Program-made: the position numbers and the translations under genes
Shown here: one piece after another, positions 15,547-23,872 of the stretch
How the letters are laid out: each line of letters begins with the position of its first letter
Position numbering within the stretch: position 1 is the first letter of the stretch
Notes under the pieces: generated by a model
The model's input: the letters and a program-made list of their open reading frames with translations, nothing else
What the model was told of the DNA's origin: nothing
Database searches by the model: none
Origin: Clostridia bacterium
GTDB taxonomy: Bacteria; Bacillota; DSM-521; Neomoorellales; SLTJ01
Assembly: GCA_004347685.1 (NCBI GenBank)
Contig: SLTJ01000038.1
Span: 1-64,000 of the forward strand
Length of the DNA stretch: 64,000 nucleotides
Direction of reading: 5' to 3'

Positions 15547-16006
15547 ACAGTGGGCCTGAAAAGTCGGCATATTTCGTCACGCCGCCCCTTGTTTTTACCT
15601 TCTCTTAGCGTTCCACATACTTGTCCACAGCAAAAATGGAGCCGAATCCGGGTTAGTCACAGCTTTATCCACATTATCCACAGTCAGCGGGTTAGCTGGC
15701 GGGATATTATTCGACATGACCCCTATGCCAGAACCAGGCTCCTTCATCCTGTAGGTGTGGCCGTTGATGGTAAAGAGGATGAATCTGAAGGTGTTGCGCG
15801 GGCCTGGCTCATAGAAATAAGGGCCGGATTCTCGGTAAAGTTCAGAAGGAATTCCTCCATAAATGGTGAATCAACCCAACAAAGGAAAACAAGATTTCCG
15901 ACGGCGCTTTGTGCCAGATCCATCCGTAGTGCGTAAGGAAGGTCTTCTGCCGTGGGCGGAATGATGCTCTTGTCTATTGCTAAACACCATAATTGGGGAA
16001 AGGGTT
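15547..16006 (+). other. Intergenic region with DnaA boxes
   Basis: 460 bases without a convincing gene. The left third holds the DnaA-box cluster listed separately. On the minus strand a short frame (about 15940 to 15760) reads as fairly ordinary protein from an ATG (MDLAQSAVGNLVFL) but has no clear ribosome binding site or family. GGGGAAAGGG immediately before 16007 is the ribosome binding site of the sigma factor gene. Confidence 0.5.
15621..15682 (+). promoter_or_regulatory. Cluster of DnaA boxes
   Basis: Two perfect boxes TTATCCACA abut head to tail at 15665-15673 and 15674-15682. A near-consensus TTGTCCACA lies at 15621-15629 and a weaker TTAGTCACA in between. This could be a DnaA-controlled promoter region, a DnaA-titration site, or part of a former plasmid or element origin. 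No AT-rich unwinding region or initiator gene is visible beside it. Confidence 0.65.
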
Positions 16007-17422
16007 ATGTCGAAGGAAGAACTGGCGCTGGAACGGTGCTGCCGTCAGTTGGTATCGCTGGGCAAAAGGCAAGATGGCTACGTTACCTACCAGGTCGTAA
16101 TTGATATGTTCCGCGCCAGTGAATGCGATGTCTCCATGGAAGCCCTCGATTGGGTTTATGAGCGTCTGGTCGCTGAAGGGATAGAGCTCGTTGACCAATT
16201 GCCCGGCGGCGAGGCTACGAAAGGGGAGTGGCCAGAGGACCGGGAACCCCTCCCGGAGAGCCCGCGACAGCCGGAAGTGGTGCCCAGTAGGCGGCGCAAG
16301 AGGCTTGAGTACTACCCGATAGAAGAACTGGAGCAAACGGAACCAGCTTCGTGTCCCGAGGAAGCTATTGACAGGTTGTTACTTCTGGCGGAAACGCGGC
16401 CGCTCTTCGCTGAAGACCTCCTAACCCTTATTGAAGACTGTTGTCTATCGGCGCTCGAGACACGCCAGTTGTTTGATTATCTGGGCTCAAGGGGGATTGA
16501 TGTTCCGGCGGTAGACTTATCCCAGGTGTTCCGTAGTGCTGCCGGGGAAGGTGGCGAGATGGAAGAGGAGGGCGAGGACGAGCCGGATTTTTTCGCTGAT
16601 CTCGGGGTGCAGATGTTACTGCGGGATATTGGCCGGCTGAAGAAGCTAACGGCCAACGAGGAACAGTGGCTGGCCCGCCTGGCCGAAGAGGGTGATCGAG
16701 AGGCTGCGTCACACCTTATTGAGGCCAACCTGGGGCACGTTTTCAATTTGGCCACTAATTACGTCGGGATGGGTTTGGACCTCCTCGATCTCTTCCAAGA
16801 GGGGTGCGTCGGTCTGATGAAGGCGGTGGGCAGGTTTGACTGGAGGCCCGGATACCGGCTCAGCGCCTATTCTTCCTGGTGGATTTCCCAGGCGATCAGT
16901 CGGGCTATTAGCGACCACGGCCGGGTTGTTCGTTTGCCGGTTCATGTGTTAGAAACCCTCAGGCGGCTGCAAAACATAACCGACGATCTTTACCAGGTGC
17001 ACGGGAGAGAGCCAACAGCAAAAGAAATCGCTGGTGAAATGAATGTGCCTGAACGGCAGGTGCGCGAGCTACAGGCTATGTCCCGGCCGGTCGTGTCCTG
17101 GGAAGCCACGCTGGCAGAATGGGAAGAAGCGGGAACGTATCCGGGGTGGTTCCTGGAGGAATACGGAGCGTCGCCGGATGACGGCCTGTACTGGCCTTTG
17201 TTACGCGAAGCTGTGGCTGAGGTTATGGCCGGGTTGGAACCTAGACAGGAACAGGTCTTGCGGTTACGTTTTGGTTTCGACGGCCACGAGCCACAAACCC
17301 TGGACGAAATCGGACAGCATTTTGGTTTGACGCGCGAGCGTATACGTCAAATTGAAGCCAAGGCCCTCAAGAGGCTCACGCATCACAAGCACTCCAACAA
17401 GCTGCGCGATTTTCTGGTTTAG
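16007..17422 (+). CDS. Sigma-70 family RNA polymerase sigma factor with duplicated region 1.1-like module
   Basis: 471 residues from ATG 16007. Residues about 8-60 look like sigma region 1.1 (Y-V-T-Y-Q, then E-A-L-D-W-V-Y-E-R-L-x-x-E-G-I-E-L-V-D), and residues about 115-165 repeat the same helical pattern, ending S-R-G-I-D-V-P. Regions 1.2 and 2 follow (L-L-D-L-F-Q-E-G-C-V-G-L-M-K-A-V), with a 2.4 helix Y-S-S-W-W-I-S-Q-A-I-S-R-A-I close to that of primary sigma factors. Region 4 ends with T-L-D-E-I-G-x-x-F-G-L-T-R-E-R-I-R-Q-I-E. It should read promoters much like sigma-A. The BREX-like locus begins 27 bases downstream on the same strand. Confidence 0.9.
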   Translation: MSKEELALERCCRQLVSLGKRQDGYVTYQVVIDMFRASECDVSMEALDWVYERLVAEGIELVDQLPGGEATKGEWPEDREPLPESPRQPEVVPSRRRKRLEYYPIEELEQTEPASCPEEAIDRLLLLAETRPLFAEDLLTLIEDCCLSALETRQLFDYLGSRGIDVPAVDLSQVFRSAAGEGGEMEEEGEDEPDFFADLGVQMLLRDIGRLKKLTANEEQWLARLAEEGDREAASHLIEANLGHVFNLATNYVGMGLDLLDLFQEGCVGLMKAVGRFDWRPGYRLSAYSSWWISQAISRAISDHGRVVRLPVHVLETLRRLQNITDDLYQVHGREPTAKEIAGEMNVPERQVRELQAMSRPVVSWEATLAEWEEAGTYPGWFLEEYGASPDDGLYWPLLREAVAEVMAGLEPRQEQVLRLRFGFDGHEPQTLDEIGQHFGLTRERIRQIEAKALKRLTHHKHSNKLRDFLV

Positions 17423-17449
17423 TAGCCGTAAAAGGAAGCATGGTCTCCC

Positions 17450-18763
17450 ATGTATGAGATTCGATGGGACAATGATACAGGCGGCGTCTTGCTGGCCGAT
17501 ACCAGGGAGACCGGGGTCGGGAGCGAGATCCGGCCCGTGTTTTTTGAGGAACTTGACCTGTTAGGCTTTAACCGGCACTGGAATTATCCCCGCGTGGAAG
17601 AACCTTTGTTATGGGCCATTGGCGGCCGGAAGTATTATTACCGGGGTGAACTGGTGGCGGAGGCCGAGGGCGGGGGTTTGTTCTCCCGGCCTGAACTCAA
17701 GATTCACCGGCCAGGATTGGCCCTGGACCCGGTCAAGGTCGAGGCCATGGTGGCCAAGAACGGGCCTCTCCTCCAGGGGCTGGTGCAGAGGTCGCTCAGG
17801 TTTATCTACCAAACTTGCACGCGGCAGCGGAAAAGGGTGGATATCGTAGCCGTAGCTTTCTCCGGTGGTAAGGATTCCCTGGTAACTTTGGACTTGGTGC
17901 AGCGGGTCCTGGAGCCGGACCAATTTGCCGTCGTTTTTGGCGACACCGGCATGGAAGTCCGTGATACGTACCTGGCCGTGGAGGCAGCCAGAGAACGGTG
18001 GCCCCACCTGACCTTCCGCACGGCCAGGAGCGTGAAGGATGCCAGGACGAGCTGGCGGGAGATGGGCCCCCCAGCCGTATTCACCGCTGGTGCTGCTCCG
18101 TGCACAAATCGGTGCCCACCCTGCTGCTCTTGCGCCAGTTGGCCGGCAAGGCGTCGGCGAAGGTCCTGATCTTCGACGGCGTGCGCCATGAAGAAAGCGC
18201 CGGCCGGGCGGCCTATACGGCCCTCACCCCGGGAGGCAAACACAAGACGCAGACCAACGCCAGCCCCATTATTGCCTGGAACGCCGGCGAGGTCTTTTTA
18301 TATCTCTTTGGCCGGCGCCTCTTGTTGAACCGGGCCTACCCTCGAGCAGGTAAAGGGCGGCCGGGTTATCTTTACCCTGCGCCAGCCGGCCGAAGACTGG
18401 CAGGAATGGGCTAAAACCCTGGGCCGCCTGTCACGGACCGGCCCCGGCCAGGGCTACATCGAACGGGGCGGCGCGGTGTACCCTTATGTCATAAGGTGTA
18501 ACGACCACAGCGTCATGGTGGAGGTAGACGGTCTGGCTCACGCCGACCGCTATGTTCTCAAGGCCTTTCGCGCCGTGGCCCTCAAGAGCGCCTATTGCTG
18601 CCACTGCCAGGCCTGCCAGGTAGAGTGCCCCACCGGGGCTTTAGTTACCCATGAGCAGGTACGGGTCGGTGACGACTGCTTGGCCTGCGGCCTGTGCCTC
18701 GACCTGCACGGGGAAGCCTATCTCACCGCCAAATCCCTAGCAACAAGCGAGGGAGGCTTGGGT
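17450..18763 (+). pseudogene. brxP: BrxP-like PAPS-reductase-family protein, frameshifted
   Basis: Three frames must be joined. Frame one (17450 to about 18070) has the ATP-pyrophosphatase PP-loop SGGKDS at residues 138-143. It breaks at a run of six C (18067-18072), after which frame two carries the expected R-W-C-C-S-V-H-K-S motif. Near 18350 a second break, apparently with a deletion, leads to frame three, with V-K-G-G-R-V-I-F and two ferredoxin-like cysteine clusters (C-C-H-C-x2-C-x3-C-P and C-L-A-C-G-L-C). Family members activate or reduce sulfur compounds; in BREX type 4, BrxP takes the place of the PglX methylase. Frame three has no stop before the DUF4007 gene. Identity as BrxP rests on neighbourhood. 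Confidence 0.75.
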
Positions 18764-19552
18764 ATGAACAGTGCAGAAAAACAAAGCTTGCCATCGTACC
18801 AGACTTTCGGCTTACAAGAAGGCTGGCTGGCGGAGTTCTTCCGGTCCCCGCAGGACTGGGTTAGCCGCAACAGCCTGGGTAACCGGCAGTTTGACGCCAT
18901 GCTCCTGTGGCTCAAACATGCCGAACTAGTAACGAGTGGCAGTAGCAAGAGATCGCTGGCGGTTACCGCCCTGGGGGAAAGGCTGGCCAAAAGGGGAGCC
19001 GGCGATGTGGTGACCTGGGCCGTCATCTGGGCCAACCTGGCCCGCAACTCGACGCCGGTGCAGTGGTATCTGACTGCCGTTCCCTGGGGGGCGGTCATGA
19101 CCAAAGCCGAGTGGGTGGCCAAAATGGGTGAAACCCATTCCCAGAGTGAGACTACCAGGCGGAACGCCATGACAGCGCTTTTTGGTTTACTTACGAAGAC
19201 GCCTTTGGGCCACGGGTTGGGGCTGGGCGAAGAAGTTGAGCCTGGCAAGCGCACCGGCGGCGCCCTGTACAAAAGGGGCTGGCACGACCCCGAGCCGGTG
19301 GCCATCCTCTACGCCCTCTACCGGTACGCGGAAAGAACAGGGAGGTACGAGCTGACCGTGCGCGAGTTGTACGAGGGCGCTGACGAGGGGCCATACACGT
19401 TGTTTGGCGTCCGCCGGGAGACGCTGGAGGGTATCCTCAGGGGCCTGTCCGCCCGGGGCGACGGCCTCATCCGCGTTAACATCGTGCTGGACCTGGACAA
19501 CATTTTCCTGGACCATACCTGCAAGGCGGTTGAGGTGCTCGATCTTGCTTGA
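18764..19552 (+). CDS. DUF4007 family protein, copy 1
   Basis: 262 residues from ATG 18764 with GGGAGG 8 bases upstream. The frame is open into the Fe-S tail of the brxP pseudogene, so an in-frame fusion would also be read if that region were translated. The DUF4007 N-terminus is recognisable: T-F-G-L-Q-E-G-W-L, then N-S-L-G-N-R-Q-F-D-A-M-x-x-W-L-K. DUF4007 genes are found beside PAPS-reductase genes in DNA-modification and defence loci, and their biochemical role is unknown. The stop overlaps the start of a second copy. Confidence 0.75.
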   Translation: MNSAEKQSLPSYQTFGLQEGWLAEFFRSPQDWVSRNSLGNRQFDAMLLWLKHAELVTSGSSKRSLAVTALGERLAKRGAGDVVTWAVIWANLARNSTPVQWYLTAVPWGAVMTKAEWVAKMGETHSQSETTRRNAMTALFGLLTKTPLGHGLGLGEEVEPGKRTGGALYKRGWHDPEPVAILYALYRYAERTGRYELTVRELYEGADEGPYTLFGVRRETLEGILRGLSARGDGLIRVNIVLDLDNIFLDHTCKAVEVLDLA

Positions 19553-20288
19553 TTGGGGTTACGAGAGAGGCTGGTCTCGGCACCAACGTTTTGGTCTGCG
19601 GCAGGAGTGGCTGGACCTTTACCTGTCCGACCGCCGGGGTTGGCGCCACCGCTCAATCCTGGGTAACCGGCAGATAGACTCCTTGGCCGCGTGGCTGAAA
19701 ACAGCCGGCATCGAGGACGGCAGCGCCCACCTAACCCCCCTGGGGGAACAGTTCGCCGCGCGGGGGACCGCCTGCCGTCCCCTGTGGGAGTTACTTTGGG
19801 TCAATGTGGTGTTCGCCTTTCCCACCGCTTGCTGGTACGCGCACCTGGGACCGGGCGCGTGGACTACTACCGAACTGAAGGCGCTGCTGCGGCAGGCGGT
19901 GCCCCGCCTGGCAGAGTGGACGGCGGCCAATGCCATCATGGAGTTGGCTGGGCTGCTGGAGCGGACCCCCATTGGTAACGAATTGGGCCAGGGGCAGGTG
20001 AGCGGGGAGAGACCGCGCCGCCTCGTCCGCCGCGGTGGGCAGCCTGGTGACGCCGCCCTAATCCACGCCTTGGGGCGACTTTACCTGCAGCAGGGCCGGA
20101 CCAGGCTCCCCTGGGCCGCCGATTTTACCTGGCCCTGGGTGGTTTTCGGCTGCAGCCGGCAATTTGTTTTGGAACGCCTGACCGTCCTGGACCAGGATTA
20201 CTTTGAGCTTGACGAGCACGGCGTGACGATATGCCTGGCAGATAAGGGGTGGTGGCAGTGTGGCGCTACGGTGATTTCCTGGCTGTAA
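19545..20288 (+). CDS. DUF4007 family protein, copy 2
   Basis: 247 residues from TTG 19545, overlapping the previous stop by 8 bases, with GAGGTG upstream. It is a diverged paralogue of the preceding gene: H-Q-R-F-G-L-R-Q-E-W-L and R-S-I-L-G-N-R-Q-I-D-S-L-A-A-W-L-K align with the first copy, and both end in a winged-helix-like region. The two overlapping paralogues suggest a heterodimer. Its 3' end overlaps the ATPase start, so all three are translationally coupled. Confidence 0.7.
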   Translation: MLDWGYERGWSRHQRFGLRQEWLDLYLSDRRGWRHRSILGNRQIDSLAAWLKTAGIEDGSAHLTPLGEQFAARGTACRPLWELLWVNVVFAFPTACWYAHLGPGAWTTTELKALLRQAVPRLAEWTAANAIMELAGLLERTPIGNELGQGQVSGERPRRLVRRGGQPGDAALIHALGRLYLQQGRTRLPWAADFTWPWVVFGCSRQFVLERLTVLDQDYFELDEHGVTICLADKGWWQCGATVISWL

Positions 20289-22885
20289 GCGAAGACTTTA
20301 TCCCGGTATTCTCCGAGGAGGTGGACAAAAACCACCAGGGTAACTGGAAGTTCTATATTCCCCATGCCCAGATGCGGAACCTGCTGGAGAAACTCATCGC
20401 CGCCCTGGAGCGGGCGCATGGCGGTGACAAGCGTTCCCTCTGGCTTACCGGGGCCTACGGGACGGGTAAAACCTACGCCTCCTTCGTCGTCAAGCACTTG
20501 CTGGAAGACGATCTGGAGGCGATCGAGGACTATTTTCAAAAGCACCAGATCCTGACGCCTTTATGGCCACGGTTCAAGGCGCTGCGCCAGAACAACCGCT
20601 GCCTGGTGATATACCGTTCGGCGTCGGGATATATCACCTCGAATCGCCGCCTGATGATGGAAGTGCAACAGGCGATCAAGGACCAGTTACAGTCCCGTGG
20701 TTACTCCAATGCTTTTAGCGAAAGCCTCATGGACCAACTGGTGAACAAGCTGAGTGACCCGAGCGGCATCTTCAACTGGGAGGCGGCCTTCACCAAGTAC
20801 CGTGGCCGTTTCCGGACCGCGGCTGCGGCCGAAGAAGTGATTGAGCGCCTGCGCGCCGGCGATGTAAGGCTGGGAGAGCAGGTGGCGGCCGTGCTGGAGG
20901 AAGAAGGCCTGACTTTGGTTGATTCCCCGGCGGCCGTCAAGGCCTGGATCAAGGAAGTCATCGCCGCCAATGACCTACAGGGCATCGTCTTCATCTGGGA
21001 CGAGTTTACGGAGTTCTTCGCTAACAACGTGCCGGTGACGCCGCTACAGGAACTGGCCCAGGCTACGGCCGACATGCCCTTCTATCTCTTCCTCGTCACC
21101 CACCGCGCCCTAAATCAGTTCACGCGCATTGACGAGGACACGCGGAAAAAACTCCTCGACCGGTTCCACAACTGCCAGTTGGAAATGACGCCGGTCACGG
21201 CTTACAAACTTATCGCCAATGTGATTGAGGCCCAGCCTGACCGGCGGAGCGAATGGGAGGCGAAGCTGGATTCCCTCTGGAGTAAAGTGGACGTGGCTGT
21301 GTTCCACATCAATGTCCTGGGCGAGCGGGTTAACAAAGACGACCTCAAGCGCATGGCACCCATCCACCCATTCACCGCCTATCTCCTGGCCACCATTTCG
21401 TCCCTCTACAGCTCGAGCCAGCGCACCCTTTTCCAATTTCTAAAAACCGAGGCCCCGGGATCCTTCCAGTGGTTTATTGCCAACTATCCGCAGGACAACT
21501 GGTACTGGCTGACGCCCGAATACCTGTGGCAGTATTTCTTTGAGGACGTTAAGATTGAAAGCATCGAAGCCATAAGCGACCTCCTGAGTCATTATCGTTC
21601 TGCCAGGGACAGCCTGAGCGAGGAAGAATTGCGGGTATTCCGCGTCATGCTGCTGCTCATCGCCTTATGGCGGCAAACGCAGGGTGCCCACGATTTGCTT
21701 AAACCGAGCCTGTCGGTCCTCAAGCGCATGTTTGTTGGCACCGAGCTTTATCAACGGGTGGGGGAAGTGGCCGACGGCCTGTGCGCCCGTGGTGTCATGC
21801 TTGCCGTGCCTGCGGGCAATGACTGCGAGTATATCATACCTACCAACACCATTGACCAGGCCAAGCTGGAGGAATGTCGGCGGCGGGCCGAAACCACCCT
21901 TACCTTGGAAAAAATGATCAGGGCCGGAAGCCACGAGGCTGGATTCGCCTCTGAACTTAAAGGACTGCTGTCCTTGTTGGGAGCAGCCAAGCTGCGCCAC
22001 CCGGTCGAGATCATTTCCGCCCGGGAACTGAAGCTGCGGCGCGAGCGCGTCCTCCAGGGCGTGGAAAGGCCCTACGAGGTGGGGGTAATTTTAGTCGCCC
22101 AGGAAGACGAACATTTCCGAAGAGCGCTGGCGGAACTTATCGAGCAGGTGATGAAGGGGTTTAAGCTGTCGGAGAACTACACGATCCGGAAAATGTCGGC
22201 GCAGGGGGAGCGCTTCTGCCAGATGGCGCGCGACGTTTTTCGCCTTACCCCGGAGCAGGCGGCCTACCCCGAAGAGGCGCGGAAAAATATGCGCAAGACG
22301 TTTATGGAAATGGGTTATCCTTTATGGGCCCTTGTCTATTATGTCCAGGGCACGTCCGGTCCGAGTCCGGTACGTGATATGGCGCGGGCCGCCGAAGCGC
22401 TCGGCGAGATTTTGGCTTACGCTCAGGATGAACTCGGAGATCGGGAGATGGAAGCGGTTGTCGAGGCCGTTAAGCCGGTGCGCCATGAGCTCTCTCGGCT
22501 GCTGAGCAGGGATAGGACGCAGGAAGGCATAAAGAAGTTCTGGGAGGTTCATGCCCCCCGGCTGACCTCGCTCATGGCGGCCCTGCGTCTTGATGTTTTC
22601 CAGGTAATGAGCCGGCTGCGGGCCCTTCTTAACAGAGGAGCGGGTGAAGGAGAAGCTACCCGAAGTCGTCCGCGACCTCGACCTGGTGGATGCCCTGAAT
22701 ACCCTGTGCGGGGTAAAGAAACAGGACCTGAACGAGCTGCGGAGCTATTTTTCACTGGTTCGGCATCGCCGGAGCGCTGGAGCGAGGAAAGGGGTACCCC
22801 CATCCAGCGGGTGCTGGAGGGCCACGCCCACCATAATTTCTCGTTCGCTATGACAATATACACCGGTTGCCTGAGACGGACATAG
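20258..22885 (+). CDS. brxC: BrxC-like P-loop ATPase of BREX type, C-terminal end frameshifted
   Basis: 875 residues from GTG 20258 (AAGGGG 8 bases upstream; GTG 20249 is an alternative). Walker A L-T-G-A-Y-G-T-G-K-T lies near residue 65-75 and Walker B G-I-V-F-I-W-D-E-F-T-E-F-F near residue 250, the pattern of the large BrxC/PglY ATPases, which are usually around 1200 residues. The frame is clean to about 22620. Beyond that the natural continuation moves to another frame (V-K-E-K-L-P-E-V-V-R-D-L), returns near 22750, and shifts again. The last 90 residues of this frame are therefore partly out of frame. Probably non-functional or truncated in vivo. Confidence 0.75.
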   Translation: MWRYGDFLAVSEDFIPVFSEEVDKNHQGNWKFYIPHAQMRNLLEKLIAALERAHGGDKRSLWLTGAYGTGKTYASFVVKHLLEDDLEAIEDYFQKHQILTPLWPRFKALRQNNRCLVIYRSASGYITSNRRLMMEVQQAIKDQLQSRGYSNAFSESLMDQLVNKLSDPSGIFNWEAAFTKYRGRFRTAAAAEEVIERLRAGDVRLGEQVAAVLEEEGLTLVDSPAAVKAWIKEVIAANDLQGIVFIWDEFTEFFANNVPVTPLQELAQATADMPFYLFLVTHRALNQFTRIDEDTRKKLLDRFHNCQLEMTPVTAYKLIANVIEAQPDRRSEWEAKLDSLWSKVDVAVFHINVLGERVNKDDLKRMAPIHPFTAYLLATISSLYSSSQRTLFQFLKTEAPGSFQWFIANYPQDNWYWLTPEYLWQYFFEDVKIESIEAISDLLSHYRSARDSLSEEELRVFRVMLLLIALWRQTQGAHDLLKPSLSVLKRMFVGTELYQRVGEVADGLCARGVMLAVPAGNDCEYIIPTNTIDQAKLEECRRRAETTLTLEKMIRAGSHEAGFASELKGLLSLLGAAKLRHPVEIISARELKLRRERVLQGVERPYEVGVILVAQEDEHFRRALAELIEQVMKGFKLSENYTIRKMSAQGERFCQMARDVFRLTPEQAAYPEEARKNMRKTFMEMGYPLWALVYYVQGTSGPSPVRDMARAAEALGEILAYAQDELGDREMEAVVEAVKPVRHELSRLLSRDRTQEGIKKFWEVHAPRLTSLMAALRLDVFQVMSRLRALLNRGAGEGEATRSRPRPRPGGCPEYPVRGKETGPERAAELFFTGSASPERWSEERGTPIQRVLEGHAHHNFSFAMTIYTGCLRRT

Positions 22886-23060
22886 ACGAGATGATGGGCT
22901 ACCTCACAGAGCGCGGCCGAGCTGGCCCTCCTGCAGAATCACCAGTATGTCCTGGACGGGTTTATCCAGGCGGCCGCTGGCGATTACGCCGACCTGGTGC
23001 GCCAGGTAGGAATGGCCGGTGAACTTCAGGCCTATATTCATCGAGCGCTTAACGGCGATG
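22622..23060 (+). pseudogene. Decayed C-terminal part of the BrxC-like gene
   Basis: Pieces of one protein appear in changing frames: V-K-E-K-L-P-E-V-V-R-D-L-D-L (from 22644), Y-D-N-I-H-R-L-P-E-T-D-I-D-E (about 22850-22890), then L-Q-N-H-Q-Y-V-L-D-G-F-I-Q-A-A and V-R-Q-V-G-M-A-G-E-L-Q (about 22929-23040). At least three frame changes occur in about 400 bases. A deletion junction with brxL follows. Confidence 0.6.
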
Positions 23061-23540
23061 TCTACCACTGGCAACATCCCCGAGGAAAAGATGCGCGAAG
23101 ACGCCGATATGTTCACCGAGCTACCCTACGCTTTTCAGGAATCAGCCCTTATTGACCGCTTTCACGGATTCATCAGGGGATGGGATATCCCGCGGATGCG
23201 GGAAAACATGAAGGCTGAGGGGTGGGCCCTCAACGTGGAGTACTTCTCGGAAGTTATGCATTCCTTGAGGAGCGAGATTATTTACCCGGCTCTCGTGGAT
23301 GCCCTCCTAGAGATCCCCAGGTCTGGCGATACCCGCGACACCACAGCCATCAAACGTATCTGCTCCGGGTTGGTGAAATTGATCTTCCCGCACGTCAGGC
23401 AGATGGAGGATCTCGACAAAGAGGAGTTTCGGACGTACTGCCTGGAGCCTGCGCTACAGATGCGCGGTCTTATCAGGCGCCAACTCCACCTGATGGATAG
23501 AGAGTACAGCGACACCGTACCAGATATTCAAATACAGTAG
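23019..23540 (+). pseudogene. brxL: BrxL (Lon-related BREX protein), C-terminal remnant
   Basis: 173 residues remain from a GTG at 23019. The sequence is the conserved end of BrxL: E-L-P-Y-x-F-Q-E-S-A-L-I-D-R-F-H-G-F-I-R-G-W-D-I-P-R, then L-N-V-E-Y-F-S-E-V-M-H-S-L-R and a run-on C-terminal helix region. The N-terminal half, with the AAA+ Walker motifs, is missing. Full BrxL is a ring-forming DNA-binding ATPase and is usually the last gene of BREX types 1 and 4. The lost sequence would also have included pglZ, so one deletion explains both. Confidence 0.8.
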
Positions 23541-23671
23541 AAGCCCATGCTGCTCATACTTATAGGGTATCCCCTGTCCGTTTGGAGCATAAATTTTCCT
23601 GAGCGACTGTAGGGGCGATAACCAGTTCGGCATCGAGATATCCAAGGTCTTTATAAAGGCGGGTACCTGCT

Positions 23672-23872
23672 GTGCGGATCAAACCATGTTATAACTGTGA
23701 CCGGCCGGTCGTAAAGGATGTCATGGCTCTCAACAAGAAACTTCTTGGCCGGTCCACCAAGCGGTTCTTATGCCTGACTTGCCTGGCAGAGTATCTTGAT
23801 TGTACCGAGGATGACCTTTCGAGAAAGATCGAGGAATTTAGGGAACAAGGGTGTGCACTTTTTGCCTTATAG
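23672..23872 (+). CDS. Small zinc-ribbon-like hypothetical protein
   Basis: 66 residues from a GTG. Two CxxC pairs (C-Y-N-C near residue 6 and C-L-T-C near residue 34) are spaced like a zinc ribbon, followed by a helix (D-L-S-R-K-I-E-E-F-R). Family not recognised. It lies after the BREX-like remnants and upstream of the cold shock gene, with no obvious operon partner. Confidence 0.5.
   Translation: MRIKPCYNCDRPVVKDVMALNKKLLGRSTKRFLCLTCLAEYLDCTEDDLSRKIEEFREQGCALFAL

Follow-up and report, generated by a model that had tools for sequence, protein, structure and literature searches.

What was the gene block at positions 15977–23872 of this stretch of DNA, can any of it still work, and what is the gene at its head? 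The stretch, called the window below, is the whole 64,000 nucleotides that were analysed. A preliminary description, made from the letters and their open reading frames, had read 17450–23540 as a decayed defence locus resembling BREX type 4, with pglZ and most of brxL deleted. We find that the locus at 15977–23872 is very probably a decayed anti-phage operon of BREX type 4, the phosphorothioation type. The original order of the operon is sigma factor, brxP with a fused DUF4007, DUF4007, brxC, pglZ, brxL and a small Cys-rich ORF.

Gene content and lesions

Region 17450–23540 was scanned with PADLOC, Pfam and NCBIfam models, and 101 related genomes were searched for relatives, among them G010, which belongs to the same order as the window genome and to another family. 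The features found are listed in Table 1. The PADLOC matches, to three fragments of brxP, to the second DUF4007 gene, to brxC and to the final third of brxL, are far stronger than chance would give and bear out the gene content that had been proposed, including the identification of the ATPase as BrxC and of the 173-residue remnant as BrxL. The three brxP fragments match positions 1–213, 210–310 and 428–773 of the 779 in the BrxP model, and the second DUF4007-like ORF matches the DUF4007 part of this model again. The 878-codon brxC ORF matches the BrxC model at positions 3–622 and in a second stretch at 864–935, and the 173-codon ORF matches positions 320–478 of 482 in the BrxL model.

Table 1. 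Features of the locus, in window coordinates.
Feature	Position	Strand	Evidence
Left edge of DNA block shared with G010, 82% identical	15803..15972		No flanking repeat found
Intact sigma-70 factor, 481 aa from TTG or 471 aa from ATG at 16007	15977..17422	+	Pfam Sigma70_r1_1, r1_2, r2, r3, r4 above cutoff
brxP fragment 1, PAPS-reductase N-terminal part, residues 1–209	17450..18076	+	PADLOC BrxP E=1.2e-76; 93% aa identity to G010
brxP fragment 2, other frame, residues 206–305	18064..18366	+	PADLOC BrxP E=1.2e-41; G010 alignment
brxP fragment 3, residues 374–777, Cys-rich ferredoxin-like domain and fused first DUF4007	18338..19552	+	PADLOC BrxP E=4.4e-89
Second DUF4007-like gene, open	19542..20288	+	PADLOC BrxP E=3.3e-26
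brxC residues 1–630, AAA+ ATPase part	20249..22116	+	PADLOC BrxC E=3.4e-144; 92% identical to G010
Junction of in-frame 699-nt brxC deletion	22117..22126		G010 alignment; PADLOC BrxC match passes from profile position 622 to 864
brxC residues ~867–1081, frame change at ~22633	22126..22751	+	G010 comparison
brxC residues ~1209–1316, degraded, after 382-nt deletion	22752..23071	+	G010 comparison
brxL residues 328–483	23070..23540	+	PADLOC BrxL E=2.1e-72
Small CxxC/CxxC ORF, 66 aa, open, type 4 BREX accessory gene	23672..23872	+	Homologues in 54/61 type 4 loci

As had been described, brxP has two breaks: a frame change at ~18065–18076, which sits within a run of C, and a deletion of ~230 nt at 18343 relative to G010, through which ~68 residues are lost. 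Both DUF4007 units are open, but the first is not the separate gene it was taken for; it is the C-terminal domain of brxP (its Pfam match, in fragment 3, is below the cutoff). The second is open in the window, broken in G010 and intact in the Ammonifex locus L042.

For brxC, about 800 open codons and a frameshifted end had been reported. One frame is indeed open to 22885, and the change of frame is present, but the open stretch contains an in-frame deletion of 699 nt at ~22117 that had been overlooked and that removes residues ~631–866 in G010 numbering. A second brxC deletion, of 382 nt relative to G010, lies at ~22751. The join between brxC and the brxL C-terminus, and with it the loss of pglZ and most of brxL, is explained by a deletion of 3485 nt at 23070, which connects brxC residue ~1316 to brxL residue 328 and removes the end of brxC, the whole of pglZ and brxL residues 1–327; of BrxL, residues 328–483 alone remain. 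Neither pglZ nor dndC was found elsewhere in the genome, which is 99% complete. The joins of the four deletions share just 0–3 nt, so that recombination between repeats is not indicated, and repeat-mediated deletion was rejected.

These lesions were read from one genome of the species, and the breaks are known from that genome's assembly. Given also that one frame change falls in a C run, the operon might in fact be intact and its breaks artefacts of sequencing or assembly, a reading to which we attach a very small probability. Taken alone, the brxP frame change could be a sequencing error; the four deletions could not, being separate and clean (230, 699, 382 and 3485 nt), and the genes that flank the operon are intact. 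Moreover, two other genomes of the order carry different lesions in the same operon. In G011 (L037 8313–11030) brxP is truncated and the downstream genes are absent at that place, and in G013 (L012) brxP is joined to brxC, with DUF4007 and the BrxC N-terminus missing. Together with the window, this makes three of the four type 4 copies in the window's order broken, and loss is therefore not unusual in this group.

Origin of the operon and timing of its loss

Genome contigs were scanned with an alignment of BrxP, and 80 loci, from many phyla, were obtained. Of the 61 that extend 8.6 kb or more beyond brxP on its downstream side, 59 have the genes brxP, brxC, pglZ and brxL in this order, with DUF4007 in places after brxP, and the G010 copy is among them; the list of loci is ranked by BrxP match and hence favours intact ones. 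The remnants in the window sit in the same order, as had been anticipated. Homologues of the small Cys-rich ORF are present in 54 of these 61 long loci, mostly directly after brxL; PMC12839542 mentions a small zinc-finger protein, which this ORF probably encodes. The locus is larger than the span 17450–23540 described before, as the sigma factor and the small ORF on either side of it had been overlooked as members.

At the G010 locus the order is sigma factor, brxP (777 aa, DUF4007-fused), broken second DUF4007, brxC (1382), pglZ (777), brxL (483) and small Cys-rich ORF. Its proteins are 76–94% identical to those of the window (BrxC 92% and 88% in two stretches), and the two loci have the same sigma fusion and the same edge sequences. 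They differ in that brxP, brxC, pglZ and brxL are intact in G010, and in that its second DUF4007 gene is the broken one (L011, between brxP and brxC). Similarity between the two at the DNA level spans 15803 to 23867 and is absent outside. The BREX proteins are 87–94% identical, whereas CinA is 60% and Hpf 57% identical, which indicates that the block was transferred horizontally, an origin that the preliminary description also missed. At the borders of the transferred block no insertion element was found, and no repeats other than 8–12-nt chance matches; the plasmid collection gave just three distant matches.

The remnants were under selection before the lesions arose: their dN/dS against the G010 copy is 0.07–0.24. 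With the Ammonifex locus as outgroup, nonsynonymous and synonymous changes stand at 73/128 for the window branch and at 64/141 for that of G010 (Fisher p=0.29), and relaxed selection on the window branch was not detected in this comparison. There are no nonsense codons in the 1,600 surviving codons, whereas 23–29 would be expected if the whole branch had been neutral. On this estimate, from one pair and one outgroup, to which synonymous sites are near saturation, the operon would have been inactivated in roughly the final tenth of the branch, which agrees with the recent inactivation proposed earlier.

Very probably, then, the operon was acquired by horizontal transfer into a thermophilic Bacillota chromosome, kept its function for most of the time since its split from the G010 copy, and lost it recently through the brxP frameshift and the series of deletions. 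In itself the decay is an ordinary case of a horizontally acquired defence system being lost; thanks to an intact copy that is 92% identical, it can be followed unusually well.

The gene directly upstream of brxP

The new part is the first genes of the locus, where there is an unreported type of first gene. In the window, the stop codon of the sigma factor gene is 27 nt before the brxP ATG, and the gene is within the transferred block. The protein has two N-terminal sigma-1.1-like domains followed by regions 1.2–4, and as a member of the sigma-70 family it has regions 1.2, 2, 3 and 4 all present above the Pfam cutoff. It is 76% identical to the G010 copy in the matching position, and the gene is open in both, with a dN/dS of 0.37 (window against G010) that reflects faster evolution than in the brx genes.

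Over its core the protein shares 50% identity with the SigA of the window genome, the housekeeping SigA/RpoD factor, and regions 2.4 and 4.2 are nearly the same, so that similar promoters should be read. The first N-terminal domain resembles B. subtilis sigma-1.1 (structure match probability 1.00, TMt 0.65, E 0.053); the predicted structure of the N-terminus is moderately confident (pLDDT 63, pTM 0.31), and the fold match therefore rests on the first domain. In contrast to SigA/RpoD, the window protein has a second 1.1-like domain, stands at the head of a BREX operon and has spread horizontally with it. A promoter scan upstream of the sigma gene gave nothing above shuffles.

At E<1e-8 the N-terminal family occurs in 4 of 399 genomes of the phylum, in all four at a type 4 BREX locus. 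The N-terminus stands alone, as a protein of 209–306 aa just before brxP, in Ammonifex, a Fermentithermobacillaceae MAG, Pelotomaculum propionicicum and G011; among loci with this N-terminal family, the window and G010 are the only ones with a full sigma core. Separately, we observed in G312 (L041 10300–11316) a 338-aa sigma-1.1-like protein after brxL, with a repeated domain and without the sigma core; brxC is split into two ORFs in that genome. From its position and domains, the sigma factor, whose regions for reading the -10 and -35 elements are like those of SigA, would most likely have been the transcription activator of the operon, with the extra 1.1-like domains as its regulatory part.

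Most other type 4 loci have, in the place ahead of brxP, a protein of 460–1418 aa with a conserved core of ~458 residues, predicted to be a row of winged helices and closest to the winged-helix arrays of UFL1 and SelB; the core model is locally confident (pLDDT 91), its domain packing not (pTM 0.56). The gene usually ends 0–15 nt from brxP and is present in ~64 of 82 type 4 loci with at least 600 nt upstream, a count made up of 58 by an adjacent-gene test plus loci from a wider search. Examples are L092 6820–9996, L120 6953–8335 and L047 7040–9919, besides ~60 other type 4 loci. Searches of Pfam, PADLOC, NCBIfam and PDB sequences gave no match general to the protein; there are scattered matches to N-terminal modules, for example HARE-HTH and sigma region 4. 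The 399 genomes gave seven strong matches to the core, all adjoining brxP, including G278, where the fetched locus has its edge at the brxP start.

Upstream proteins that include or resemble the helix-turn-helix of sigma-70 region 4 were seen in L047 (a Thermincola MAG), L048 (a Nitrospirae MAG), L066, G278 (L152) and G190 (L154), which shows that sigma parts have been used here more than once. Among 52 upstream proteins, one, an A3 member, gave a match to the Schlafen group 3 helicase domain (E=9e-89); such a fusion is unusual for a BREX locus. When profiles of the sigma-1.1-like N-terminus and of the tandem winged-helix core were compared, the result was not significant; we therefore rejected homology and regard the two as distinct genes that occupy one slot.

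No gene upstream of brxP is listed in section 34, on type 4, of the published survey (PMC12839542), the part of it with which we made the comparison. We give even odds to the proposal that a first component of BREX type 4, encoded immediately before brxP, has gone unrecognised. In most lineages it would be a protein of tandem winged helices whose N-terminal modules can be exchanged (HARE-HTH, sigma region 4 and others); in the Moorella-like lineage it would be a sigma-1.1-like protein, which in the window and G010 would have become a full sigma-70 factor. Its functional role, for which we judge the balance to be equal, would be to control transcription of the operon or to guide the modification complex on DNA; in other lineages the tandem winged-helix protein may be a regulator or a DNA-scanning partner. 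If the proposal is true, the first component would tie defence to RNA polymerase, and through a dedicated sigma factor the regulation of a BREX operon could be tested directly.

Function and comparison with known systems

By analogy with its family (PMC11931770, PMC12839542), the intact operon would use the sulfur chemistry of BrxP, with DUF4007 and BrxC as partners, to place phosphorothioates in host DNA, and BrxC, PglZ and BrxL would block unmarked phage DNA. On this analysis the window copy cannot do either, because PglZ and most of BrxL are gone and BrxP and BrxC are broken. Both DNA phosphorothioation and phage protection would be expected to be absent in the window strain.

Could the locus be a streamlined variant that works without PglZ, through a shortened BrxC and the other pieces still present? 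The 878 open codons of brxC, with its large internal deletion in frame, and the open second DUF4007 gene, sigma factor and small ORF are what such a variant would have. It is nevertheless hard to credit, given that brxP is in three pieces, that brxC changes frame and has lost its end, and that brxL is without its first two thirds, including the ATP-binding part. Furthermore, PglZ, missing from the window genome, is kept in all 457 taxa that the published survey covers (PMC12839542).

The probability that the locus belongs not to BREX but to MZA, or to the Ssp or Dnd systems of phosphorothioation, is practically negligible: BrxC also matches SspC, but at 8e-24 against 3e-144 for the BrxC model; BrxP weakly matches DndC, but the fragment with a BrxP match of E=1e-76 has no DndC match; Ssp, Dnd and MZA are without BrxL, of which a remnant is present; and at the intact G010 locus pglZ and brxL were seen and no SspE or DndFGH effector. 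MZA likewise has a sigma-70 protein, MzaA, at a defence locus, and the window sigma factor matches its core at E=1e-55. However, this match covers just the generic sigma core (profile 408–667 of 683), and a scan of ten neighbouring ORFs found neither MzaB–E nor any other Mza match.

A decayed BREX type 4 operon is thus the reading we retain. With type 4 as described in PMC11931770 and in section 34 of PMC12839542, the window locus shares its genes, their order and the fusion of BrxP, ferredoxin and DUF4007. Compared with that section, it is without pglZ and most of brxL, its brxP and brxC are broken, and it adds a second DUF4007 gene and a sigma-70 factor, neither of which the section names.
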